A stretch of 38,622 nucleotides of DNA, from the NCBI GenBank assembly GCA_001799635.1, contig MGTV01000003.1, positions 40,335 to 78,956 of the forward strand, given 5' to 3'. Below, piece after piece: positions 5,755-35,248 of the stretch. A program made the position numbers and the translations under genes. The number at the start of each line of letters is the position of its first letter. The first letter of the stretch is position 1. Source of the DNA: Elusimicrobia bacterium GWA2_62_23. Lineage in GTDB: Bacteria; Elusimicrobiota; Elusimicrobia; Elusimicrobiales; UBA9959. The notes beneath the pieces were generated by a model. It made no database searches, was not told the origin of the DNA, and saw only the letters and a program-made list of their open reading frames with translations.

Positions 5755-6438
5755 TCAGCCCACGATCATTAATTTGTCCATGAACAGCAGGACGCCGGCG
5801 GCGGCCAGCACCACGCCGGCCACAATCTCCACGTAGCGCATGGCGCCGCGGAACCTCGCCATGAAGGCGAAGAAGCGGGCCGTCATGAAAGCCGCCAGCA
5901 GCAGCGGTATGGCCATGCCGGCCGAGTAGGCCAGCAGCAGGGCCACGCCCTTGGCGGCCGTGCCCGACACGGCAGCCATGCCCAGGATCACTGCGAGGAT
6001 GGGGCCTATGCACGGCGACCAGCCAAGCGCGAAGGCGAAGCCCATGAGGAAGGACCCGGCCGGCCCCTGGGCGATATTGCGCATGGAGAAGCGCTTTTCG
6101 TAATTCAGGAAATTCAGGTTGAACACTCCGGTCATGTGCACGCCGAGCAGCACCATAACTACCCCGAACACCTTCATGAGCAGGTCCTTGTGCGTGGCCA
6201 GCAGGTCGCCTATGCTGGAGGCGGCCGCGCCCATTATGGAGAAGGCCAGCGTGAAGCCGGCTATGAAGATGGCCGCGTTGAGCACCACCTTGCGCGTCAC
6301 CACCTTGGCGTCGCCTTTCACTATTTCAGCCGCCGAGAAGCCGGACAGCATGGAAAGGTAGGCCGGCAGCAGCGGAAGGATGCAGGGCGAAAAGAAAGAC
6401 ATGACGCCCGCGCCGAAAGCAGCCCAGAATTGTCCCAT
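5755..6438 (-). CDS. ccdA: CcdA/DsbD-type thiol-reductant transporter
   Basis: A 227-residue six-helix membrane protein of the CcdA family, which moves electrons from cytoplasmic thioredoxin to extracytoplasmic thiol proteins. Both redox Cys are present in matching SPC motifs, one in helix 1 (FFSPCILPLLPAY, Cys19) and one in helix 4 (GWSPCIGPILAV, Cys143), which is the pseudo-symmetric hallmark of the family. ATG is preceded by AAAGGAGGC, a near-perfect ribosome site. It is the last gene of the run 19723-5755, 10 bp after the PorV-like gene. Its usual partner (a ResA-like thioredoxin or DsbD domain) is not in the window. Confidence 0.9.
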   Translation of the reverse strand: MGQFWAAFGAGVMSFFSPCILPLLPAYLSMLSGFSAAEIVKGDAKVVTRKVVLNAAIFIAGFTLAFSIMGAAASSIGDLLATHKDLLMKVFGVVMVLLGVHMTGVFNLNFLNYEKRFSMRNIAQGPAGSFLMGFAFALGWSPCIGPILAVILGMAAVSGTAAKGVALLLAYSAGMAIPLLLAAFMTARFFAFMARFRGAMRYVEIVAGVVLAAAGVLLFMDKLMIVG

Positions 6439-6448
6439 GATGCCTCCT

Positions 6449-7420
6449 TTAGAACTTCTTTTTTAAGGTTATTCTCTGCGTACCGCCCAGTTTACCCTCC
6501 TGGCTCATGGCGTAGTCCAGGTCGGTGTTCATAAACTTCACGCCCGCGCCCGCGCTGAACGCGCCCGCGGCACTCTGGTTGGGCATGCCGTTCACGCCGC
6601 CGCGCAGGCTTAGCCCGTAGGCGCTGCCTGCGCCCCCAAACATTGCATACTCGCTGCCAAGGCTGTAGGTGGTGTACTTGTCGTACACGTAGCGCCTGGC
6701 GTCGAAATTCAGCATTACCCCGGCTATAGGCATAAACACTATGCCGGCACTTACGCTCAACGGCAGTTGGTCACGCTGGGAAATGTACTTTATGCCCGGG
6801 CCTATGTTCTGCACCGCCACGCCTATGGTAACCGGCACGGCCCTTAACCCGCGCTTTAAGCCCAGGTCTACGGCATAGCCAGTTCCTTTCACGCCCGCTA
6901 TGGAACTTTCTATGTACTTCACGGCCCCGCCCGCGCTGTAGGCCCCGAATTGCTTAGCCACGGCCAAACCGGCCGCCTGATCATAGGCGCTATAGCCGCC
7001 GGTCTTGGCCCTTGTGGCCGTGCGGCCTTCCATGTCCCCGGCGGATAGTCTGGTAAAGCTCAGGCCCAGCTTCCACCCCTGCGGCATCCCGAATCCTGCA
7101 CCCACAAAGTCGTGCATGGAACCCAGGTACCAAGAACTATGGCTCAAGGCCGCCTCGCCCTTAGCCATGGACGCCAGCCCCGCCGGGTTATAACTTATGG
7201 CGCTTATACCCATGGCCGAAGCCGCCCCCGCAGAAGACATAGCCCCTGCCCGGGCGTCAGTATCAATGCGCAGGAACTCGGCGCCGCTTTCAAGGGCCTC
7301 GCTTATTTTGGGCGAAGGGATAAGCAGGAACAGCAGCAACAAGGAGAACACCCACGGCCGCGACAGCAGGTAGACCACGCGGTTTGCGGCATCATGTTGA
7401 GGGGTAGTTTTGTTTTCCAT
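6449..7420 (-). CDS. PorV/PorQ-like outer-membrane beta-barrel protein
   Basis: A 323-residue protein with a long positively charged N-region, a hydrophobic signal core (about residues 22-36) and then the PorV/UPF0164-style opening LRIDTDARAGAMSSAGAAS, with ISYNPAGLASM typical of FadL/PorV barrels. Alternating hydrophobic strands continue to a terminal Phe (KKKF), the usual C-terminal outer-membrane barrel signal. In type IX secretion PorV is the shuttle that receives C-terminal-domain cargo. Here the upstream gene, 12 bp away, encodes a cargo-like giant protein. AGGGGG lies before ATG. The family call is from motifs; the partnership is inference. Confidence 0.8.
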   Translation of the reverse strand: MENKTTPQHDAANRVVYLLSRPWVFSLLLLFLLIPSPKISEALESGAEFLRIDTDARAGAMSSAGAASAMGISAISYNPAGLASMAKGEAALSHSSWYLGSMHDFVGAGFGMPQGWKLGLSFTRLSAGDMEGRTATRAKTGGYSAYDQAAGLAVAKQFGAYSAGGAVKYIESSIAGVKGTGYAVDLGLKRGLRAVPVTIGVAVQNIGPGIKYISQRDQLPLSVSAGIVFMPIAGVMLNFDARRYVYDKYTTYSLGSEYAMFGGAGSAYGLSLRGGVNGMPNQSAAGAFSAGAGVKFMNTDLDYAMSQEGKLGGTQRITLKKKF

Positions 7421-7432
7421 ATTTCCCCCTTC

Positions 7433-10400
7433 CTACCGGACCACGGCGAACTTGCCGGTCTTTTTAATTTTCTGCCCGCCCTTGCGCGCCTCTATGAAGT
7501 AAAGGTAGACACCGCTGGGGATATGGCCCCGCCAGACATATTCATAGGCGTAACGCTGGTCTATTGTGGCCGGCATGGCAGTAAGCGTGGCTTCATGCGC
7601 CTCACGGCCGCTTACCGTGTACACCTTAATATCTACAGAATCGGCCAGGCCGCACTCTATGTGGAATATGGGCGCGTCACCGCCCTTGGCAGGGTTGGGG
7701 TAAACATACACCTCGCCCAGGGTGAAGGCCGTTGAAGGGCCGGCGTCCTGTACGCTTACCAAGGGCTGCTCACCGGCGGGGCGGACTAGTTTTGCCTCCG
7801 CTATGGTGCTAACCAGCACCTGGTACAGCGAGAAGTGTCCCACCTTGGCCTTTACTACTTTCTCGGCAGGGTCTATGGTGGAGGCTAAGGGCTCCCAGTC
7901 TTTGGAAGACGGGTTCCAGTAGGCGACCTGAAGTTTTTCCTTTTGGGCGTCGAAGCTTTCGTAAGGCAGCGATATCTCCACGGGCTCGGCGAATACCGTG
8001 CCCTCGGGACCGAACTCGAAAGGCTCGCCGCGCCGCGTCAGCGCCTTTGCCGCCGCCTTGGCGTTGCGCTCGCGGCGTTCGCTGTCGCGCTCGAAGACGC
8101 TTGCCAGACTTATCTCCTCATCGTTCTTCAGCGCCTTGCCGCCGATCTCAACACAAGCGCGGGACTTATGCGCCAACTTCCCGCCTTTACCCTTGCCCAT
8201 CCGCTCCGGGTTCATAACGCGCAGGTTATCCTCGGCGATAAAGGCCGTATCGTCGTCAAAGGAACCCTCCACCGTCACCACGCTCACCGCGTTAACGGGC
8301 AGCACCGCCAGCAGCGCCTGCCTGTCGAACTTAACAGCGACGCTGTGCTTGCGCTCGCGGAGCCTGTCTTTTTTGCCCTGGCCGCGCTCCATTAGGGCGT
8401 ACAAAGGCTCCGCCAAAGCGACGTCATTTATGCGGGTGATGCGGATGGTTTCCTCGTCAAAACCGGCACCCGCCGCGCTCGACACCGTAAGCCGGGCCTC
8501 CACATAGCGTCCTTCGCTCTTGAGGTTGACAATCTGCGGAGAGAAGCTAAGCGTTACCTCAGCCAGGCCTGTCTGCCCACGGACCTGTATAGCCGCCATG
8601 CGGGCGGACTCAGCATTGCCGACATTGTCCACCGACCACCAGACCACGTTGTGCGGGCCAGGTGTCAGAGTGAAGCTGCTGGCAAACACTGCCGGCGTGG
8701 AACCATCTATGGAATAGGTTATGGCAGCAATCCCACTATGGGCGTCCGTGCCGGCCAGCCACACATAAGTATCCGACGATATTGTTAGCCGGTTAGCTGT
8801 TTCAGTAGAAGGGGCCAACGAGAAACCCAGCTCCGTGGCGGGCGGCGTGCCGTCGGCAACCAGGGCCAGGGTCTTTACCTGCGAGGCGTTTCCCAGCCTG
8901 TCTTTGGCGTAATAACCATAGATGTGCGCGCCTTCAGCGGCCGTAAAGACGCCGGAATAAGCTACATAGGCATCCGTGGAGTCAGCCACAAAAATGGCCG
9001 CCAGCCCGCTAGCCGCACCCGAAGAGGGCGGTTCCACGGCCGAAAGGGCGATCATGGCTGAAGTCGAAGTATACAACTGTACGCCCTGGAATACCGGACC
9101 GGTAATGGTGTGCTCCGTCTCCGGCGCGCTATTGTCCACGGAGAAGGCCGCGGCTTTGACAGGTTCGACATTACCGGCTTTGTCTACGCTGTAATAGGCG
9201 AGCGTATGGAGACCCTCGCCAAGAATATTGAACGGTCCCGCAACCACGGCCGCGACATTGCCATCTATGGAGGCATAGGAGAAGTCCACCCCCACTCCCT
9301 GCCGGTCGCCGGCAACCAGCATATCGTCAGTGGCCGACAACATCAACGGCGTAGCGGAATTTATAAAGATAGCCTCACCGTCAAACTTCGGCTCGCCGAT
9401 GTTCAGCGTGGTCTGTGGGGCAATGGTGTCGTGTACCACCTCGAAGATCCCGGTGACAGTTCGCGTGGAGTTATCCGCGGCGTCCACGGCTACAACCTCA
9501 AGCCGCCACAGGCCGTCGTCCAGCGCCATCGGATTAAGCGCCTGCCCAGAAGCCGCATTTACGGAGGACGGGCGCTCACCGCGGGGCGTGCCCTTGTCCA
9601 GCACCTGCACCAGCAAGGCGCTTACCGAGGGCGCCTGGTCAAGGTTGTCAACCACTGAGAACCAGATATTTATAGTCCCCTTGCCCGCCACATAGCTGTC
9701 GCCGGCGGTTGGGGATGCAATGACAACGGCGGGTACTGTTTTGTCTATTTTTATCCCGGTCACGAAAGCAGGTCTTAAATTGTCGGCATAGTCCAAAGCA
9801 AAAACCGAAGTGGAAATACCCATTCCCTCCCCAGACAGCAGCATATCTGCCGGGCAGGACTTGATCCCCGAAAGCGCGTCAACGCAGGCAAACTTAATGG
9901 CGACATCGGAATTGTTCCACCCCGCCGCGTTGGGCGCGGGCTCTGCCACATAGGAAACGGCCGGCGGCTCCATGTCTATGTTTACCGTGGCCGTGGAATA
10001 AGAGATGTTCCCTGCCATATCTCGGCATGACCCGGATATACGCTGTTCCCTCCCTTCCGCATCAATTACAGCGGAAGAACACCCGGCTATGCCGGACAAA
10101 GTATCCGTGCCGGCGAAGACCACCCGGACGCTTCCCCTGTTCCAACCTGCCTCATTAGCAAGCGGCTCAAGCAGATGGCTGATCTCCGGCGCCGTTTTGT
10201 CTATGGCAAAGGCCAGTTCCCTCGCGGTCTCTTTATTGCCGGCAGCGTCTTCGGCGTAATATTTCAGGCTATGCCCCCCCTCGGAGGAAACCGCCACCGG
10301 CACCATGTACTCCCTTTCCGCTGCAGTGTCCAATGAATAGAAAACGCGTTTAACACCGGACAAGGGATCTTCAGCCGCAATCGCGATTTCGACATTGGAG

Positions 10401-13400
10401 GAATACCAGCCACCCCCCTGGACCCCGGAGAGCGTTGCCGTGCTGACGGGACTCGCCTTATCGATTTTCAGCCCGGACACCAGTGTTGCTACTGAATTAT
10501 CTGCGTAATCCACGGCGGCAACACTAGTAGATATCTCCATCCCCTCACTCGTCATGACAATATCGGCCGGGCAGGATTTGACTCCGGACAGTCCGTCCGA
10601 GCAGGCGAACTCAATATTCACGTCGGAATTGTTCCAGCCGGCCGCATTGGGGGCAGGCTCAGTCGTATAGGCGATACCGGGCGGTGTAGTATCAATATTT
10701 ACCGTAAATGCGGCCGTGGAGGCCCAGCCGGCAAAATCCTGGCAATAGCCGCTTACCGCAATACCCGCGCCTTCCGCGGACACTGTAATGGTAGATGAAC
10801 AGTAGTCAATCCCGGAAACCGCATCTGTGCCGTTAAATACCACCATGACAGGGGAACTATTCCAGCCAGCTGTATTTTGCGACGGAGACAGAGAATAATG
10901 CACAATGGGAGCGACCGTATCTATCTTCACATAAAACAGCCCTTCGCGCTCTTTGTTTCCTGTGTTATCCTCCGCATAATATCTAACCGTGGCAATCCCC
11001 TGGGAAAGTATGGAGAAAGTGCCAGGGGATGTTTCAAATCCATCCCCATTAAGCGCGTAGTATACCGTCCCGACCCCACTCAAACTATCAGCAGCGGAGA
11101 TATTCACAACCACAGTGGAGACATGCCACCCATTAAACCCTTGCGTCGAGTTGAGCGCCGCAGTAGAAACCGGCGCGGTTCCGTCTACATACAACATTGA
11201 CACCTTTTCCGCCTCAACATTGCCAGCATTGTCAGCGCTACGGAATCCGATCATTCTCTCGCCTTCTTCCAATCGGAATGGAGCAGAGTACTTTTCAAAC
11301 ACCGTTTCCGTGCCGGAACCGATCCGGAATTCAGTATAACCTACTCCTGTGAAAGTCCCGAAAACCACGGGATCTTGCGCGGAGAACGCCACTGAACTTT
11401 TTGCGGCAACAAACCGCCGCCCTTCTCCAAAATAGTCCGGCCCCAATATCTCCAGCGTCGTTACAGGGGCAGCGCGGTCCTTAACCACCCCGAAAATTGC
11501 GAAAAGGGACGCTATTTGCGTTACCGGAACCGTAATTCTAAAGTTATCGCGATCCAGACTCTGATTCTCCAGTTCGACCCAGCCCCTGCCCGCGAAATAT
11601 TCATAAACAGCCAAATCGTCAATGGTAAGGCCTGACCCCTCAAAAGTGGCCGTAGAGAACGAGAATGTAAGCACGGCAGGAGGGTCATAGGAACCGTCCG
11701 GACCGATCAGATACAAGTTGCTTATCGGCAACAGGCCCGCCACTGCAGCGGAACCCATAACCACCACCGCCCCCGAAGACTCCGCAGGAATGTGGGCAAT
11801 GAACATTTCCTTCCGCGCAGCGAGACTCAACTCGGGAACCCCATTGACCATATCCGTACTGGCGACTATTATCACCTCGTTCTTGCCTGTTACCGCATAT
11901 CCAAGAGAGAGGTTTTCCGTCTCAAGCCCGGTGGCATTACGCGCCTTCACCCTTGCGTAATACGTCGCAGCCTCGGCCAGGCCAGAGAAAACCTCGGTTG
12001 TTCCTGTCATCCACCCGCTATCCGCTGTCAGGGGAGCAAAGAGCTCAGAAGTAGAGACCTCGACCCGATACTCCGTTCCAGAAGGATTCAGGTTCCCCGT
12101 CCAGACAACGCTCATAGAGGATAGGCCGACCCAGGAAAAAGCACTGCGACGTTCTTTAAAACCAAGCACACGATTGTAACCGATATCCGCAACGAACAAC
12201 ATCCGCTTGCCGCCAACCACCAGCTCCTCCATGGAAGACGGCGAATACACCCCGGCGGGGGAAACGGCCGCGTTAGCGGCGTTAAAATCCGGCTGTCCCA
12301 GAACCAGCGAAGCCGCCGAGCCCGAATTCAGCGGCGGCGCGAATTTCAGCACCCGCCTGTTACCTGTGTCAGAGACATAGAGCGCGCCACTATTGGCCAC
12401 AGCTATCTTCTGTGGAGAACAGAACTCTGCCGCCGTCGTGGCACAAGTGTTGGTTCGCGTCGGAGGAGTTGCCATATCCGGCTGCCCCAGAACAGCGGCG
12501 GCTGGCATCTTTGTGTAGAACGGCGGATTAAAGACCAGCACCCTGCCCGGAGCGGATTCGGATATTAGAATATTTCCCAGGTTGTCCGAACTTATGCCTT
12601 TAGGTGCAAATGTATCGGCTGACGTGGCAGACTGATATTTTTTTGTGACGAAATCACTCTGGCCCAATACTATGTCCGCGGCTTTACCTGTGTGGAACGG
12701 CGGAGAGAATCTTACGGCGCGATAATTGTATCCATCTGCAACCCACAACGCCCCAACCGCGTCGAACGCGAAGTCAACCGGGCCGTTTAGCCTGTTGGAA
12801 GCCGTGCCGGCAAGATTGGAGGTAAAATTGTCCTGACCTATTACCAGGTCGGCGCTTACCCCGGCATATGGCGCCGGGAACCTAAGCAACCTGTTGGCTT
12901 GGTCCATTACCCACAAATTTCCGGCTGCGTCGAATTTCAGCTTCTGTGGATGATCAAAAGTGTCGGCTGAAACTTGGCAGGAATTGCTATCAAAATCCTG
13001 CTGACCAATGACTATTTCAGCGGCTTTTGAAGTGCTGAACGGCGGTGAAAAGCCAAGAACACGACAATTCCCGAGGTCGGCCACAAACAGCCGGCCATCA
13101 GGAGAAATTGCGGCGCCATCAGGGCTGGACATCTTGTTGGCCGCGAGGCCTCTAGCGGCCGAGTAAAAATCCGGCTGACCAAGCACAACCTCGGCCTCTT
13201 GTCCGTTAAGGAACGGTTCCGGGACAGCGGGGGTCTGTGCCTTAGTAACCGCAACACTTATCGCGGAATCCAGGTTTCCCAAAGACGACATGGTCCGGAC
13301 AAAGCAGGAATAAGAGGTGTTAGGTGTCAGGCCGGTTTGAACATAGGTAGTAGTCCCCTCCCCCAGGACCCCGGAAACAGCGGTGCCTGTCTGATCGTAT

Positions 13401-16400
13401 ATCTGGAACTTCAAGCCCGGTTTGGCGCCTCCCCAGACCCATTGTATCGACGAGGGAGATAGCGCGATACCCCGCATGTCTGCCACCGGCGCGGGCAAAG
13501 TAAACACCGAGTTTAACCCGGCAAAAGAGGTCTCCTCCCCATCTCTGTTGCGGGCCTTAACCCTGGCATAATACCTGGAGGAATCCTCCACACCAAAAAA
13601 CGTGAAGCTGCCTCCCGTCACATATCCGCTGGGGATAACGCCGGAAGAGAAATCCTTGTTTTTTGAGATTTCCACCCAGTATAGCGTGCCGTCCGGGTTT
13701 GCCCCGCGAAGCCAGTTCACAGTAAAGGAACTGCTGCCGACCTCCGTAAATATCCCAGTATGCACGGGTTCGAACATCAGGATCCTGTTGTTGTTCTGGT
13801 CCGAGACCCAAAGCCGGCCGGCAGAGTCCGTGACAACAAAACCAGATGCGTCGGCATCAGAAGGGAAATTGAACGTTGCCTGCAAGTTCATGTTGAACGA
13901 CGACACAAAATCATTCTGCCCCAGAACCAACGAGGCCGGCATGCCATTGGAAAATGGCGACCTGAACTTTAAAACGCGGTTGTTTTTGCTGTCCGCGACA
14001 TACAAATTCTCCGCAGCGTCAAATTCAAGCCCCATAGGCCCTGAAAGGCTCGCTGCCGAGGGTTGCGTGCGGCCCAAAATGGTGTTATTTGTCAGAAAGC
14101 CGTCTTGCCCAAGCACGGTTTGCGCCGGCATCCCGGAATAGAATGGCGGAGAATATTTCAACACCCTGTCGTTCCAGTAATCAGAAACCCACACTTCGCC
14201 ACCGGCGGAAATCTTTACCCCGGCAGGGCCATACAATGTCGACGGACTTGGCGCCCCATATCCACAACTTGAAAATCCTACCTGCCCCAGAACCATGTCA
14301 GCGCCCATTCCGGTAACAAGAGGCGGCGAAAACCTTAAAACCCTATTATTGGACCAATCTGAAATCCAGAGAGCGCCGGCGGCATCAAACGACATTTTGC
14401 CCCAACTATTATATGCCAGCCTGTTCTGCGCGCAGCCTCCCCCCATAGTGGTAAAGTTCCCGGCGCCTATAACAAGGTTCGCGCTCATTCCGGTTAAAAA
14501 CGGCTTGGGGAAACGCAATATACGTCCCATATTATCGGAAACCCACAGGTTGCCCTCGCCATCGGTTGCCAATCCTGATGGATACATAAATCTTGAGGCC
14601 GTTGGAGAAATATCCTCGTTGGAATACAAATTCGACTGCCCTATAACCAGAGAAGCGCTCATACCGCTGGAAAATGGCGGAGCAAATCGCAGCACACGAT
14701 TATTAGCCCTGTCGGCAATCCACAAGTTGCCATCGACGTCGAAATGCAGAGCCGCCGGGGTTGCAAGACGGTTGGGGGCGAGCCCCCCGGCAGTGGAAAC
14801 ATAATTCGGCTGACCTATGACAATGCTGGCGTTCTGCCCCATCGTAAAAACTTCGCTGGCGGCGGGAAGCCCGGCCAAGGTGACGCCTGTGGATACGGCC
14901 GTTGAAAACGTTTGCCCTGGTAATGAAAGGAAAAGATACGCCCCGTATGGGGTATCTGGCGTCAGACCGTTCTGCGCAAACCATGTGGTTCCTGGCGGCA
15001 GCTCTCCGGAAATAGCCCCTCCGCTGGCCGAGAAAACCTGGTAGGCTTCGGCTCCGGCCACACCAACCCACCCCCAGGTGATACTGCTGGATGTTTTCGC
15101 CGTAGCGGAAATTTGGCGCGCCGGCCATACATTTATCCCGGCTGTCTTAACTTCCCCCTGATTGCCAACATTGTCCATAGTTGCATAATAAACAGTATGC
15201 GTGCCGACGGGCAGAGTGAACGGCCCGGAGTATTCCGCCGTATCACAGGCGGCGGGCGGCGTGTCGGAGTCGCACTCTTCGGGCGAAACGTCCACCAAGG
15301 CGTAGCGCGCCGCAACCCCGCTGGCCACGCCGTTGGATTCATGGTCAACGGCAACCAGCGTCAGCGAGTCCCCCTCCACAAGGTAAGCCGTGCCGCCGTC
15401 GGCGACCGGCACGGTGCCCGCAAAGAGCTCCGCCACGGGCGGGGTCCCGTCCGAGAGGAAAGCCGCCGTACTCAGCGACTCATAGTTTTCGGCGGCATCA
15501 ACCGAGGCATACCCCACCCTATGCCTCCCCTCCGCGGCCGTGATACCTGTTGAGAACACAGAAAAGGATGCTTTGTTCTCTTTTGTTAGTCCGGCCGTTT
15601 CCAGCTCGGGTGAGATTTCCAGCTTATAATACGTCTCAACCCCGGCCGCATGGTCATCGATTCCGGCAAGACCCAGAATTGAAGTGGTAGAGACATACTC
15701 CTCTCCGTTGGGCCCGAGGAAATATCCTCCGCTCACGGCCTTCCTCGTATGCGGCGCCCACCTGTCCGGGAAGCTCCGCTCCGGCACCGACTCAGGAGAG
15801 GAATATATAACGAACGGAGAGAGGGCGTTCGGGTATCCGAAGATTATGTCGTTTGCCGTGTCCACTCCGGCAGTCACATCCTCCCAGGCCCCGTTATTCA
15901 GATGGAGCAGGTGGAGCCGGCGCTTTTCTTCCGTACTCAGCCCAGCCGCCGCGAGTTTTACCTGTACGCCGACGGCGCCCGCGTATTGCGCGGTGGTCTG
16001 TATATCGTAGGCCCGGGAGACGGGCGAAGTTTGGTAGCCCGCCGGCGGCGCCCAGGTCATGGGCAGCATAGCGGCGAACTGCTCTCCTGGGGTGGTCTCA
16101 TTCCCGAATGAAAGGGCGATGTCCTCGCCGGCCGGACGGGCCGGCCCGCCGTTGAACATTGCATAAAAATTCGGGACCACGAAAGGCTCCCGCTGAAACG
16201 TCGCATTCCCGTACTCATCCAGTACCGCCAGATACAGAGTATGCGTTCCGGAGTCAACCCAGAAGCTGCCGCCGGAATCCCCGCCTTGAACGACATTGAT
16301 GTTGTCGTTGGTCCAGGACTCAAAAGGGGTGTCCACGGCGAAGAGCGCAAACAACTTCTCCTTGGGGGTGGTGTCATCGTGGAATCCCCAATGGGCCTGG

Positions 16401-18533
16401 GACACAGGCGGGTTGAAGTTCACGCGCTCAAACGGGTCCGGAGGGGAATCGTTGCCCGGCAGATTATAAGCCTTGGGTCCGGCAGAGCGGGAAGGGCTAA
16501 GATTCGGGTCAGATAACTGCCAGTTGCCTGCACGGTCCACTGCTCTGGCGTACAGATTGGGTCCCGGATTGCAGGTGTTCTGTAAGGTGTAATCTACCGC
16601 GCCAAGGTTGTCGGTGTCTACCGTGCCAAGGAATTCTGTGCGCCCCACCGTTGGATGGGTTCTGAGAAAATAATCCACTTTATCTATGCCGGACTCGGAG
16701 TCCTCAGCCAGTACGCTGATATTGAATTTGTCTCCGGCCTGGGCCACCCGCAAATTGGATATCACCGGAACCGAGGAATGAACAGCTTCCCAACGATGCG
16801 CAAGGTCCACAGGAAAATTACTTTTGGGATCGGTATAGCCGGCAACAGCGTCGAAAAGCCCAGTCTGCTTATAGGCATACACCACCAGTCCGTCACATCT
16901 GAAATGCTGCGGCTCCGTCTCACCGGCCCAGTCCGGGCCTATAGGAAAGAACATCTGTTTTGCACCCCTATCCGCATAGGGTTTCCCTAGTTGCAATGAA
17001 GCGAACCAGGCGATTTTATCGCGTCGCAAGTGGGTAAGTCCTGCCCACTCTCTTGCCCCCCAATAAGGGGCATCCATGAAACCCACTGCGGACGTATATT
17101 CCACACCTTCGGGGACCGCATTCACTATAAAATGCGCCGCGTTGGTTTTAAGCAAAGGCAACAAGCGTCCATTGTTGGCCGCCAAGCGAGAGACGAAGGT
17201 CGTAGTTGATACGCCGTTATTCGCGACATACTGCGAATCGCTGACAATATACAACCCCATATGCCCCATATAGACCGGGTCTGTAGTCATTTTCCTGAAA
17301 AGCGCCGTTCCTACCTCAAAAATATCCTCCCCGTTATATGTGGCCGCATATGGGACAGAAGAAGTGCAGGCGTTATAATAAAACTCCCGGACCGCGCTGC
17401 CGCTGTGCCCGAACTTGTCCGTGGCGTATATGGTCACTACATAACGGCTGCCGGAAATTATGTCTTTTGCCTCCAGCCCGGAATATTCCCAGGAAACAGA
17501 CTTTTTTCCGGGCGGGATATCCAGAACTACGGTTTCCGCGGCAGCCTCCCATGCGGTACCGTTCCAATATGTCTTTGTTCCGTTCCAGTCGGCCCGCTCA
17601 AGCTTCAGTTTTGCCGACAAGATCTCGGAAGAATCCACGGCCGTGCCGGCCAGCGTGGTGCTGGGGGCAGCCGCGGAAACGAACGGCACTGTCGAGATCT
17701 GAATTGCTGGCGGGGCTTGGTCAACCACAAAAGAAACGGCTTGCCCCACGGCCGCATTGGAAACACGGTCCGCGGCACCCCACGCTGACCGTAAACCGAC
17801 AATCTTTCCCGGCGGGAAACTCGACGTAATTGTTTAAATCTATCGAAACAGACTTGGCGGCGGAAGCGCCGATGTCCCCCTGCGCCGAGCACTGCGGGTC
17901 CCTTTCCGGCGTATAATGTTCGTGGCTGCAAAACACTGCGACGATCTCCGTACCGCTCGTCTCCCCGTCGAACAAGTCGCGCTTAAATTTACAGGATTCT
18001 CCAGATACGGACAGACTAACCTCTACTACCCCAAGCTTTGCGCCGGCATCGGAAACGTTTCCCAGAATAGACAGGTCGTCCGTGTTTATTGAAGAGGTGT
18101 TCTCCGGCTTTGTTATGGAAATAGCCGGCGCGGTAGCATCCACAGTAAAACCGGATGGGGGGAACGTGTACGGCTTTTCCTCTGCGGTAGGGTAGTCCCT
18201 CAGGGAGAACTCCGCCCACGCCGTATGCGCGCCTTCGCTGTAAACGCGCGGCGCGGTAACCTCGATATTATCCACGAACAACTTGCGGTTTTCGATTGAG
18301 GTGTTCTTGCAGCATAAATAAGGGCAGGTTCTCTCCACACTATAAGCGACGCCGCTGTCCCCACTGATGTAATTATCCGGGCCGAACCCCCACCCTACCG
18401 CCACGTCCGGCCAGACCTCATCGGATTGGTTGCATATCAACTGTGCGGAGACGCCCTGACACAGGAACAAAGCGAGGAAAGCGCAAACGCCGGCCAGGGG
18501 CCGTTTTGATTCTGTTGACATATACTGGCGCAT
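7433..18533 (-). CDS. Giant secreted multidomain protein, one apparent frameshift
   Basis: About 3699 residues once one base is removed from the four-G run at 17778-17781 (minus strand). The uncorrected sequence gives two pieces: 18533-17721 (signal peptide and Cys-rich region, 270 aa) and 17749-7433 (3438 aa). Corrected order: signal peptide (1-30); Cys-rich and Ig-like region (to about 390); permuted NlpC/P60-like domain with His about 424 and Cys about 546; Ig-like spacers; NHL propeller 1 (six blades, about 1230-1595); FnIII-like linkers; NHL propeller 2 (six blades, about 1775-2130); a long Ig-like/OmpL47-like array (about 2450-3330); a ZU5-like segment (about 3500-3590) and a FlgD/T9SS-type C-terminal domain (VYVYPNPAKGG to GKFAVVR). 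Probably a surface or released protein exported with the downstream PorV-like barrel. Ligand and activity are unknown. Confidence 0.85.
9745..11190 (-). repeat. Tandem duplication of a three-domain Ig-like cassette
   Basis: Two consecutive blocks of about 720 bp (about 11190-10465 and 10465-9745) each encode the same order of three Ig-like domains: one with PVSTAxLxxxQG...VxYxL (OmpL47-like), one with an AGWN...CSS...DxAG pattern, and one with EPAPNAAGWNNSDV...CPAD...DYADN. The third domains are especially alike between blocks. The array shows growth by in-frame duplication. Confidence 0.8.
12140..14860 (-). repeat. Two six-bladed NHL propellers coded by tandem repeats
   Basis: Coding repeats of about 55-60 codons with the consensus pattern DAxGNLWVADxxNNRVLRF followed by PPFxxGMxAxxVLGQxxF. 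Six units lie at about 14850-13760 and six more at about 13210-12140, separated by two FnIII-like linkers and a short hydrophobic stretch. The PPF...GQ phrase is the inter-blade strand. NHL propellers usually bind proteins, glycans or nucleic acid. The repetition is at protein level, with DNA copies clearly diverged. Confidence 0.85.
16830..17340 (-). other. Permuted NlpC/P60-like (YiiX-type) domain in the giant protein
   Basis: Within the giant protein the segment EDIFEVGTALFRK...YMGHMGLYIVSDSQYV resembles the His half of NlpC/P60 enzymes (GDxxxF...HVGIYxG). It comes before ASLQLGKPYAD...FRCDGLVVYAYKQTG, which resembles the Cys half (LGxPYxxGG...DCSGLVxYAY). This His-before-Cys order is that of the circularly permuted papain-like family (YiiX, LRAT-like). 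Candidate catalytic residues are His at about nt 17263 and Cys at about nt 16897. Possible activities are amidase, peptidase or acyl hydrolase; none can be assigned. Confidence 0.65.
17778..17781 (-). other. Frameshift site in the giant gene
   Basis: As read, the upstream frame continues SVGCRGPCFQCGRG and stops soon after, while the downstream frame begins inside the domain. Dropping one G from the run restores SVGAADRVSNAAVGQAVSFV, a smooth Ig-like strand joining both frames, and the total length becomes an exact multiple of three. It could be a sequencing or assembly indel, a real inactivating mutation or a slippage switch. Confidence 0.85.
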
Positions 18534-18541
18534 AGCGTTAC

Positions 18542-19723
18542 CTAATCGTATTCCCAGGGCAACCCGACATGCTTTTTATCGTATGGCTCCCCTTTAAGTT
18601 TTTTGAGGCACTCCTGTAAGCCCTTATATACACTAAGCCCCTCCGGATATTTTTTCCCCAATCGTTCGGCAACTTTCTTATTATCCTCCCATCTAGAATC
18701 GTTGGGGATTTTAGTTATGGCTTCCTGCAAATCTGGGATCACCTCTTTGGCATTGAATTCCGCCAGAATATCGAACGCCCAAGTTATATCTGTTTCGTCC
18801 CCCCCCCCCTCCTCTTTCGGCTTTACCCATTTCAGTATCAGGGGAATGGCTTTCCTTTCATTCATCCGCAGTAGCATTCTGGCGGCTTTCTGTCTTGACG
18901 CACCGATATAAGAACGGTCATCAAGCAACTTCATCAGCCGCGGTGTCAGCATGGGCCGCAGTTTCTCCATTTGCTCCGGGCCGCGACGGATAATGAAGGA
19001 AAGTTGTTCCAGCGCCGTCATATTAAAGAAAGAGTCCGGCTGGCTCTCGTCCAGTATCTTAAACAGCATGCCTATCGCCCGAGGGTCCTTTGACTGCCCC
19101 AACGCGCGCACGGCATTTAGATTTATGCCTATGTCATTGTTGGTCTTGGGTTCACGGTTCATAAGCCCGGCCAGCGCATCCACATCGTCTATGCCGGAGG
19201 AACCCACGCTCACCATCACGCTCCAAAGCACGTCGCCGGGCAGGGATTTATCCTTTGCTGCCTTTTCCAGCGCTTTGCGCGCTTTGGGCTCGGTCCGGGA
19301 CGGCTCCATAAGCGCCTGCGCGGCACGCTTGCGCACTTCTTTGTGCTCGCCGGTATCCAGTAGAGCATCCGAATATAGGCCCAATTCCTGCTCTCTGGTT
19401 ATTTTCTTTTTATCACCAGCTTCCACGCGTTCCAAAAGAAGGAATCGAGTTTTCCAGTCAATGGACTTGTCCCGGACAGCCTTAAGAAGATCTCTGTTCA
19501 CCTCCACGGCTTCTATATCCTCGTGAAGCTTGCCCACTAAGCCCACAAGCTCCTCCCTGCTCTCCGCCTTCTCGGCAACGACCGCTGAATTGAATTTCTT
19601 CACTGCGGAACTTCCGTTCCCGGCACCAGCTTGCTTCGCCTGTTCGCCGGACGCTCTATCAGCGGCATATCCCATTGAGACCTTTATGGTCGCCACAAGA
19701 ATTATCAGAAGAAGTTTTTTCAT
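18542..19723 (-). CDS. Exported HEAT-repeat-like protein
   Basis: A 393-residue protein with a signal peptide (about residues 1-20, KKLLLIILVATIKVSMGYAA), a charged helical region and then paired alpha helices resembling HEAT/armadillo units (for example LNAVRALGQSKDPRAIGMLF and RQKAARMLLRMNERKAIPLI) through about residue 370. Such alpha-solenoids act as binding scaffolds. It is the first gene of the run and ends 8 bp before the giant gene, suggesting a periplasmic partner or assembly factor for it. The reading frame crosses an 11-G run (encoding EGGGD), so slippage would switch it off. ATG follows GGAGAGC. Confidence 0.75.
   Translation of the reverse strand: MKKLLLIILVATIKVSMGYAADRASGEQAKQAGAGNGSSAVKKFNSAVVAEKAESREELVGLVGKLHEDIEAVEVNRDLLKAVRDKSIDWKTRFLLLERVEAGDKKKITREQELGLYSDALLDTGEHKEVRKRAAQALMEPSRTEPKARKALEKAAKDKSLPGDVLWSVMVSVGSSGIDDVDALAGLMNREPKTNNDIGINLNAVRALGQSKDPRAIGMLFKILDESQPDSFFNMTALEQLSFIIRRGPEQMEKLRPMLTPRLMKLLDDRSYIGASRQKAARMLLRMNERKAIPLILKWVKPKEEGGGDETDITWAFDILAEFNAKEVIPDLQEAITKIPNDSRWEDNKKVAERLGKKYPEGLSVYKGLQECLKKLKGEPYDKKHVGLPWEYD
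18799..18809 (-). repeat. 11-bp G homopolymer inside a coding region
   Basis: Eleven consecutive C on the plus strand (G on the coding strand) encode the middle of KEEGGGDET in the HEAT-like protein. Runs this long are slippage-prone. Here it lies in the first gene of a surface-protein operon, so length change would frameshift that gene and could have polar effects downstream. Confidence 0.9.
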
Positions 19724-33904: not shown

Positions 33905-33949
33905 TTTGATTAAAGTCAACCCATGCGCAAGAATATAACTGAGGACATT

Positions 33950-35248
33950 ATGAGGCGGATCTTGCTGGTAACCTTTGCGGCCGTGGCCGCGCTGACGATG
34001 GGCCTGAAAGCCCAGGACGTCTCTTTTGATTCCCTCTACAAGGACCTGCCCCAGCCCGTGGCCGCCGCTCCCGCTGCTGCCCCTGTCGCCGCGGCGCCCC
34101 AGGGCCAGGCCGCGCCGGCCGCCGAGCGCGAATGGCTGGTGCTGGTGTTCATAAACGGCGTCAACGACCTGGGCATACTCGGCTTCGCCAATAAGAGCAT
34201 CAACGACATGGAGAAGATCGGCTCCACCGACCGGGTGGCCGTGGTGGTGGAATACGGGATAATGGGTCAGGACGGCTCGGACGCCCGCAACCTGCAGTTC
34301 CAGCGCGGCTCCAAGACCATTTACGTCACCCGCGACAACGATACCGGCCGCATCACCTCACTGCCGTTCTACGCCTCCAACGACGGCGACATGGGCAGCG
34401 CCGCCAATCTGGTGCGCTTCGTGAAGCGCGCCGCCCGCCGCTACCCCGCCAGGCATACCGCGGTGGTGATCTGGAACCACGGCGCGGGCCGCCTGGGCAT
34501 AGCCTATGACGACGTCACCAAGAACCACATGGAGATAGACCAGCTCGGCCGGGCGCTCGGCCAGGTGCGCCAGTTCCTGGGCCGCAAACTCGACATCTTC
34601 GCCACCGACGCCTGCCTGATGCAGATGGCCGGCGTGGCCTACGAGTTCAAGGATTCCGCCGAAGTGGTGGTGGGTTCGGAAGAGGTGATCCCCGGCGACA
34701 GCTACCCTTATGACGCCTTCCTGGGGCCGCTGGCCGCCAACCCGGGCATGAACGCCGAGCAGCTGGGCGCCCTTATGGTGGACGCCTACGCGGCCTACTA
34801 TTCCGGGGATAATATAACGCTTTCCGCCCTGCGCACTTCCGCCCTGCCCGGCTTCGTGGGCCGGCTCAATAACTGGGTGGAAGCGGTGCGCGCCGATCCC
34901 AAGGCTTTCAAGGCGGCCGCTTCCCGGGCCGCGGCCGTGGCCACTCAGAATTTCTCGATGAAGGACTCCAAGGACCTCTACGATTATCTGGGCAACGTGA
35001 ACGACATGCTGGCCAAGAGCCCCGGGGTAAAGGCCGCCGGCGCGGACCTGCGGGACTATATAGAGGGAGCGCTCATTATAAAGGACAGCGCCAGCCCTTC
35101 GCTGCCTAACGCGCACGGCCTGGCCATCTATATTCCGGCGCTCCGCTACAATTCCGCCAACTACGAAAAGCTTTTGTTCTCGCGGGATTCCCTCTGGGAC
35201 GATTTCCTGCGGGAAGCGATGCAGGCCAGGCTGGACCCTAATTTATGA
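33950..35248 (+). CDS. Clostripain-like (C11) secreted cysteine protease
   Basis: A 432-residue exported protein of the clostripain family, caspase-fold Cys proteases that usually cut after Arg or Lys. Signal peptide about 1-21 (ending LKAQ), a Pro/Ala-rich linker (about 33-58), then the catalytic domain: LVLVFINGVNDLGILGFANK, the catalytic His in IWNHGAG (His177) and Cys in FATDACLMQMAGVAYEF (Cys222), followed by GSEEVIPGDSYPYDAFL. ATG at 33950 has GAGG 7 nt upstream; the ATG at 33923 has none and would put nine polar residues before the signal peptide. It overlaps the next gene by 4 nt, so protease and neighbour are made together. Confidence 0.9.
   Translation: MRRILLVTFAAVAALTMGLKAQDVSFDSLYKDLPQPVAAAPAAAPVAAAPQGQAAPAAEREWLVLVFINGVNDLGILGFANKSINDMEKIGSTDRVAVVVEYGIMGQDGSDARNLQFQRGSKTIYVTRDNDTGRITSLPFYASNDGDMGSAANLVRFVKRAARRYPARHTAVVIWNHGAGRLGIAYDDVTKNHMEIDQLGRALGQVRQFLGRKLDIFATDACLMQMAGVAYEFKDSAEVVVGSEEVIPGDSYPYDAFLGPLAANPGMNAEQLGALMVDAYAAYYSGDNITLSALRTSALPGFVGRLNNWVEAVRADPKAFKAAASRAAAVATQNFSMKDSKDLYDYLGNVNDMLAKSPGVKAAGADLRDYIEGALIIKDSASPSLPNAHGLAIYIPALRYNSANYEKLLFSRDSLWDDFLREAMQARLDPNL

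Follow-up and report, generated by a model that had tools for sequence, protein, structure and literature searches.

A candidate type IX-like locus in an Elusimicrobia bacterium, with a giant C-terminal-domain protein followed by the gene of a proposed dedicated PorV-family barrel

We analysed a 38,622-nucleotide stretch of contig MGTV01000003.1 from Elusimicrobia bacterium GWA2_62_23, referred to below as the window. Four genes follow one another on the minus strand, from 19723 to 5755, in the order HEAT-repeat protein, giant protein, PorV-family barrel, and CcdA. The gaps between these genes are 8 bp (18534-18541), 12 bp (7421-7432), and 10 bp (6439-6448), as the initial annotation had given them. 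The same window also holds a clostripain (C11) with a signal-peptide-like start, at 33923-35248. The features of the four-gene locus are:

18542 to 19723, minus strand: HEAT-repeat protein, 393 aa (HEAT_2, E 9.8e-16); accessory leader gene
17721 to 18533, minus strand: 270-aa ORF encoding the N-terminal part of the giant, matching positions 1-43 of 70 of the Big_7 profile below the cut-off (part of an Ig-like domain)
7433 to 17749, minus strand: 3438-aa ORF encoding most of the giant; it contains fn3 and Ig-like domains, NHL repeats, and seven repeats of the OmpL47 type
16760 to 17392, minus strand: weak NLPC_P60 match (E 0.095) within the giant, possibly marking a papain-like amidase domain of the NlpC/P60 or C92 type
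7436 to 7714, minus strand: type IX type A-like C-terminal domain (CTD) of the giant, about 93 aa (TIGR04183, profile A2 against the PDB, Ig-like model)
6449 to 7420, minus strand: predicted outer-membrane barrel of the PorV family (PorV_fam, PDB profile, fold), 323 aa, encoded 12 bp downstream of the giant; proposed dedicated carrier and anchor
5755 to 6438, minus strand: membrane thiol transporter of the CcdA/DsbD type (DsbD_TM match), 227 aa with 2 Cys; accessory

The assignment of the first gene to a HEAT-like alpha-solenoid protein, and of the last to CcdA, was borne out by these profile matches; judged by eye, the HEAT-repeat protein has a signal-peptide-like N-terminus. The giant does lie where it had been placed, but it is not the single gene that had been described: in this assembly it is split over two ORFs in different frames that overlap by 29 bp. 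The frame change seems to fall within an Ig-like region, and it may represent either an assembly error or a real mutation. These two options could not be separated, because the 270-aa part, when searched in 32 genomes of the genus, matched only short Ig-like stretches outside its own genome. The 270-aa ORF has a start that looks like a signal peptide by eye and contains 14 Cys, a count that falls to 10 should the final 20 residues be out of frame. The amidase-like region of the giant is 28% identical over 170 residues to a similar region in the paralogous cargo of locus L028, which itself matches Peptidase_C92 with an E-value of 4.6e-4, below the cut-off. Taken as a whole, the giant is a very large modular adhesin-like protein.

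The initial annotation had also proposed that the giant ends in a FlgD/T9SS-type CTD and is followed by a PorV-type barrel, and both proposals agree with our profile searches. TIGR04183 matches the end of the giant weakly (17.9 bits versus a cut-off of 23), and so, at the same place, do the PorZ and M6i models with their C-terminal parts. When profile A2, made from the cargo CTDs, was compared with the PDB, the best matches were 5m11 (E 1.5e-10), which we take to be PorZ, and PorU 6za2 (E 1e-9), in both cases at their C-termini. The CTD profile also matches 8glj, 8glk and, weakly, the gingipain CTDs, and it matches FlgD more strongly than any of these three. Elsewhere in the genome TIGR04183 exceeds its cut-off, the total being 12 places, of which three do so only with neighbouring matches. 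The predicted structure of the giant's CTD is Ig-like, and a Foldseek search with this model gave generic Ig-like sandwiches, with no type IX CTD among the best 50 matches. On sequence grounds we class the cargo CTD as type A-like. For the barrel, PorV_fam scores 122.5 bits versus a cut-off of 90, and the PorV equivalog stays below its cut-off (48.5 of 250 bits). A PorV profile matches PorV 6h3i_F in the PDB (E 2.5e-29), and the predicted barrel, of the PorV/FadL type, is fitted best by PorV, with 8gl6_F and 6h3i_F as top fold matches. Profile and structural model thus both place the barrel in the PorV family.

The short gaps and shared strand had led to the suggestion that the four genes form one dedicated unit for export, folding, and display, in which HEAT and CcdA would be essential. 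A HEAT gene leads three of the seven cassettes whose leaders were scanned (of 18), namely the window's, that of L026, and, at a distance of one intervening gene, that of L028, and in L114 a CcdA gene that is 79% identical to that of the window directly follows PorV. Comparison with other genomes and loci nevertheless speaks against such a unit. The HEAT gene is present in 3 of 32 genus genomes, with its own genome counted, and in the other two the HEAT match lies ~530 bp or less from a contig end, which leaves the gene order beyond HEAT unreadable there. It was also found in one of 18 other genomes, with coordinates and E-value identical to those of one of the three. Of 44 named loci, L114 alone has CcdA directly after PorV. 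In the nearest paralogous cassettes, L024 and L025, the leaders differ from the HEAT leader of the window, and no relative of the window's CcdA was found beside them. Among the cassettes compared, only these two have a leader gene in common, and the five non-HEAT leader genes scanned had no Pfam family match. A Cys-rich N-terminus served by CcdA is likewise ruled out as a general theme, since 22 of the 25 CTD ORFs have at most three Cys in their first 300 residues. We therefore reject the four genes as a conserved entity, and give very little credence to the idea that HEAT and CcdA are indispensable parts of a single unit.

What is conserved is the core of the locus, a type IX CTD cargo gene directly followed by a PorV gene. 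The genome contains 25 CTD genes, as found by a whole-genome search with a profile built from 22 of them, and 27 PorV genes. Eighteen of these PorV genes have a same-strand CTD gene within 400 bp upstream; at the same distance, a same-strand CTD gene lies downstream of none, and an opposite-strand one was seen once. This adjacency is far above chance, given a probability of ~6e-31 in a simple binomial calculation that assumes 2800 genes. The cassette is thus repeated about 18 times in the genome with different cargos, the reverse of what would be expected if giant and PorV-like genes never co-occurred, and the link between CTD cargo and PorV made in the initial annotation holds well. The gaps between CTD and PorV genes cluster at 7-10 bp, or the genes overlap by 4. 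In seven sister genomes, 41 of 56 sampled PorV genes were paired with an upstream CTD gene (40 by the first rule), and in the named loci this was so for 42 of 47 PorV ORFs; of the other five, three are truncated at a locus or contig end. Pairing is not complete: for 9 of the 27 PorV genes the 400 bp upstream hold no CTD gene (for 8 this extends to 3.5 kb), and 7 of the 25 CTD genes lack a PorV gene within 400 bp downstream. Some cargos are therefore likely to share a PorV.

PorV and CTD sequences also diverge in parallel. For the 18 pairs of this genome, the distances correlate with r=0.85 (r=0.49 for 14 non-redundant pairs). For 98 pairs the correlation is r=0.89, and for 24 non-redundant pairs (PorV identity < 50%) it is r=0.55, neither value being reached in any of 5000 shuffles; in the strictest set of 12 pairs (PorV identity < 35%), the observed value was reached by 32 of 5000 shuffles. 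Copying of whole cassettes would also give correlated divergence, and so binding is not proven by this correlation.

Sov(SprA) and PorU were among the proteins whose homologues the initial annotation had advised looking for, and they gave opposite results. A homologue of the SprA/Sov translocon is encoded elsewhere in the genome. A profile of 18 SprA members matched SprA in the PDB with an E-value of 4e-28, and all 18 match TIGR04189 with scores below the curated equivalog cut-off; with a single SprA sequence, nothing was found in the PDB at E<=0.01. SprA matches, all below the curated cut-off, are present in 161 of 198 Elusimicrobiota genomes. The C25 domain of the PorU sortase, on the other hand, had no match in this genome at E<=1, where no control matched either. 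It was found in 1 of 119 genomes of the phylum, so the C25 model is able to detect the domain there. In P. gingivalis, PorU cleaves the CTD (PMC11205867); as no C25 sortase domain was found, we have no support for this usual processing of type IX cargo here. The GldM model gave no match in this genome at E<=0.01, and in 60 genomes the PorM/GldM model had a single weak match, with an internal stop; this model may be narrow.

These observations bear on two other readings of the data. Two-partner systems have tightly paired genes, and both the tight pairing seen here and the lack of a recognised GldM motor in this genome would fit a scheme in which the PorV-family barrel forms the pore for export and the SprA of the phylum has another role. 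However, the barrel model is of the PorV/FadL type, whose bore would not admit a giant protein, and SprA matches are widespread in the phylum. Moreover, the solved translocon has the CTD in the SprA pore, touching the PorV loops (PMC10994853). We consider it highly improbable that PorV is itself the pore. A second reading is an ordinary type IX system, in which few PorV proteins or a single shared one would suffice, an undetected sortase would cleave the cargo, and the neighbouring PorV copies would be redundant paralogues. The unpaired PorV and CTD genes fit this reading, and so, as a speculation, does the clostripain mentioned above, which could replace PorU, given that C11 and C25 belong to one peptidase clan. 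Yet 18 PorV genes standing directly after a CTD gene, the matched PorV-CTD distances, and the near-absence of C25 from the phylum are hard to reconcile with it, and we regard an ordinary system as unlikely.

The reading that we prefer, and consider likely, is a system resembling type IX secretion, in which no sortase is recognisable and the PorV carriers are cargo-specific; each PorV would bind its cargo and probably also anchor it. Giant and PorV would be exported by Sec, as suggested by signal peptides seen by eye, and the giant would then cross the outer membrane via the SprA-type translocon. Its CTD would be captured by the cognate PorV, the product of the next gene, made in matched amount. 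Because no C25 sortase is recognisable, we propose that the CTD remains on PorV, such that the barrel would act as both shuttle and anchor; we put this last step forward tentatively, as one that could well be wrong. HEAT and CcdA would be cassette-specific extras, HEAT perhaps a periplasmic holder and CcdA perhaps a source of thiol-redox supply for the Cys-rich N-terminus of the giant. More tentative still is the extension to a phylum-wide, sortase-free type IX secretion, in which giants are exported via SprA and each stays plugged in its own PorV, giving some twenty giants an independent stoichiometry and anchor each.

Several known systems resemble this arrangement in part. Type A cargo with PorV, as in Flavobacterium johnsoniae and Porphyromonas gingivalis, shares with it a type A-like CTD, PorV, and a SprA homologue. 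In those Bacteroidota a single PorV is reported to serve every type A CTD (PMC12618676), whereas on genomic evidence no such common PorV applies here: of the 27 PorV genes, 18 stand next to a CTD gene, and a C25 sortase is not recognisable. In the literature that we covered on paralogues of PorV and on PorV2, we met no type A cargo that has a PorV gene to itself. In SprB-SprF of F. johnsoniae, a type B CTD with a PorP/SprF barrel, the cargo gene is likewise followed directly by that of the barrel, which is the proposed anchor (PMC9143113, PMC12618676). The locus described here differs in its type A-like CTD and PorV-like barrel, and the matches of the window proteins at E<=0.01 included neither a type B CTD nor a PorP/SprF model. 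A CTD that is kept and bound to its PorV or PorQ barrel is described for PorZ-PorQ and PorU-PorV of P. gingivalis (PMC10202324). The cargo CTD profile matches 5m11 and PorU best, although these pairs are parts of the sorting machine and not bulk surface cargo.

Elusimicrobiota are a poorly known phylum, and our literature search found no report of type IX secretion for them. One article describes such secretion as restricted to Bacteroidota (PMC10202324), and another limits it to the Fibrobacteres-Bacteroidetes-Chlorobi group (PMC11205867). If the proposed system exists, a dedicated PorV with no recognisable sortase would uncouple the translocation step from the attachment step, and naturally matched and mismatched CTD-barrel pairs would serve specificity studies. 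For Poribacteria, one study reports orphan TIGR04183 proteins with eukaryote-like repeats and no Por secretion structural genes (PMC3909097). Those proteins resemble the cargo described here as CTD proteins outside Bacteroidota, and differ in that the latter come with PorV partners and a SprA homologue. The same CTD-PorV pairing could account for the orphan sorting domains of other phyla, and would offer a possible route for CTD proteins where no machinery is known, as in the cases cited from that study (PMC3909097).

The four minus-strand genes of the locus, which encode a HEAT-repeat protein, the giant, a PorV-family barrel and a CcdA-like protein, were separated by gaps of 8, 12 and 10 bp, as the initial annotation described. 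The giant was not a single open gene but was split over two ORFs that overlap and differ in frame:

17721-18533, minus strand: first ORF of the giant, 270 aa
7433-17749, minus strand: main ORF of the giant, 3438 aa, in a frame other than that of the 270-aa ORF
within 7433-17749, minus strand: domains of the main piece, namely NHL repeats, fn3 and seven OmpL47-type repeats

Because a Big_7 Ig-like match in the 270-aa ORF was partial (profile positions 1-43 of 70 only) and the frame change followed shortly after it, the sequence makes one broken gene more likely than two separate genes. Near the N-terminus of the main piece (window 16760-17392) there was a possible permuted papain-like (C92/NlpC) amidase domain, with a counterpart in the paralogous cargo L028.

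The succession of a cargo with a type IX C-terminal domain (CTD) and a PorV-type barrel, noted earlier for the giant, recurred in this genome (2.98 Mb, 51 contigs, completeness 91.8%). The PorV_fam model gave 29 matches corresponding to 26 genes, 20 of them above the curated cut-off (one counted only together with a neighbouring match), and a home-made PorV profile found 27 PorV genes in the fetched loci. A CTD profile built from 22 CTDs of the same genome (A2) recovered 25 CTDs genome-wide, identical to the 25 in the fetched loci. Eighteen of the 27 PorV genes directly followed a same-strand CTD gene within 400 bp, 17 of these within 100 bp. No PorV gene (0/27) had a same-strand CTD gene within 400 bp downstream, and one of 27 had an opposite-strand CTD gene beside it by the same distance test. 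Pairing held for 15 of the 20 genes above the PorV_fam cut-off; conversely, 7 of the 25 CTD genes had no such adjoining PorV. Some cargo frames were very long: at G000:C50 (CTD at 58535-58840; loci L041 and L027) an open frame of 11,806 residues ended in a type IX CTD, with a PorV gene 330 bp beyond it, and CTD matches also lay in frames of 11,824 residues in G013 and 14,446 residues in G018.

Relatives of the window's PorV in the 44 named loci belonged to Elusimicrobiota or to MAGs labelled just 'bacterium', except for one MAG labelled Spirochaetes. PorV_fam matches numbered 19-40 in each of 18 same-genus genomes and 2-6 in twelve genomes that represent a different family within the order. 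In a sister sample of seven genomes, biased to high scores, 40 of 56 PorV places among the matches listed were paired with a CTD gene under the first rule, 41 if a longer start/end overlap was allowed, and for 48 a CTD gene lay no more than 3.5 kb upstream. The 44 named loci, obtained with a PorV subfamily alignment and therefore biased to the window's subfamily, contained 47 plus-strand PorV ORFs, of which 42 had a CTD gene directly upstream; of the remaining five ORFs, those of L115 and L139 and one of L136 were cut at a contig or locus end, one of L152 was a fragment, and L143 had no CTD gene. Going by layout and the length of the contigs, the two sets share at least two loci (L084 with L148, L100 with L149). 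Since the Spirochaetes-labelled MAG (L153) had the same arrangement, a PorV gene 13 bp after a CTD gene, at a PorV identity of just 25%, the pairing may extend beyond one phylum.

Some PorV genes stood at a greater distance from a CTD gene. At L017 in the own genome, a 581-aa gene lay between PorV and a CTD gene ~2.6 kb upstream, and of the 15 PorV genes in the sister sample that had no partner at 400 bp, 7 (in seven loci) had a CTD gene farther upstream, at up to 3.5 kb; these are perhaps three-gene cassettes. PorV-family proteins of ~470-1100 residues with long extra parts (L016, L029 and L030 and, among the sister loci, for example L061, L064 and L079) lacked a CTD gene in the 3.5 kb upstream of them.

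We compared PorV and CTD identity distances by correlation with permutation tests. The 18 own-genome pairs gave r=0.85 (p 5e-5); a limit of 45% on PorV identity left 14 pairs, with r=0.49 (p 1e-4). For 98 pairs (99 minus one with identical PorV) r was 0.89, with none of 5000 shuffles as high. The same held for 24 pairs below 50% PorV identity (r=0.55; 0/5000) and 20 pairs below 40% (r=0.40; 0/5000, the top shuffle falling just under), while 12 pairs below 35% gave r=0.48, with 32 of 5000 shuffles as high. The correlation shows inheritance of the cassettes as pairs; in itself it is no proof of PorV-CTD binding.

The proposal that all four genes form a conserved unit did not hold. Counting the own genome, 3 of 32 genus genomes had the HEAT gene, and the single match in 18 genomes reached via the named loci was, by coordinates and E-value, one of these three. 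In the two other HEAT genomes the contig ended ~350 and ~530 bp from the match; in G032 another ORF started after HEAT, and no match to the window's N-terminal giant piece was found there. HEAT proteins of low mutual similarity led three of seven scanned cassettes (of 18) in the own genome, at L028 with one gene between. Of the 44 named loci, one (L114) had a CcdA gene after PorV, 79% identical to that of the window. The HEAT and CcdA genes vary between cassettes and are not core.

The PorV profile matched PorV of the solved translocon (6h3i_F) at E 2.5e-29, and the structure predicted for the barrel, at a mean pLDDT of 86.6, had 8gl6_F and 6h3i_F as best fold matches. The CTD profile matched the C-termini of 5m11 (PorZ, deposited as immunoreactive 84-kD antigen PG93; E 1.5e-10) and of PorU (E 1e-9). 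Weaker matches were to FlgD (E 3.8e-7 at best), to segments of NHL proteins (E ~1.6e-4), to two CTD chains, 8glj_D (E 6.5e-4) and 8glk_D (E 3.7e-3), and to gingipain R2 (E 0.026). The predicted CTD structure was a seven- to eight-stranded sandwich for which the fold search was unspecific. Of the machinery that the initial annotation suggested looking for, a Sov(SprA) homologue of ~1.8 thousand residues was present. A profile of 18 such homologues matched PDB SprA at E 4e-28, and TIGR04189 matched all 18. Across the phylum, 161 of 198 genomes, from 57 of 64 genera, had a SprA match, in no case above the curated cut-off. The search for the C25 peptidase domain of PorU gave no match in the own genome and 1/119 in the phylum. 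Across 60 genomes the GldM model matched once, weakly, and not in the own genome.

Cargo would be exported via SprA, and its CTD could be bound by the neighbouring PorV, which might retain the cargo as an anchor. Cognate PorV-like barrels may shield CTDs from cleavage, as a review itself suggests (PMC10202324). For type B cargo, cognate barrels have been shown, and type A CTDs are stated to be all recognised by PorV (PMC12618676). The arrangement in Elusimicrobiota applies type B logic, a cognate barrel, to type A parts. Type IX/Por secretion in Elusimicrobiota was not described in the literature searched (a minority of the subscription journals, no bioRxiv preprints), including passages of PMC7031533, PMC12204202, PMC8542988, PMC3909097, PMC8857248 and PMC8026616. 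Because NCBI family models already label the parts ('PorV/PorQ family', 'T9SS type A sorting domain'), it is only the system as a whole that seems undescribed within this literature.

In this genome without a recognisable PorU (C25), the window also encodes a clostripain (C11) with a signal-peptide-like start (33923-35248). Clostripain belongs to the same clan as C25, and this protein is a candidate for CTD processing.
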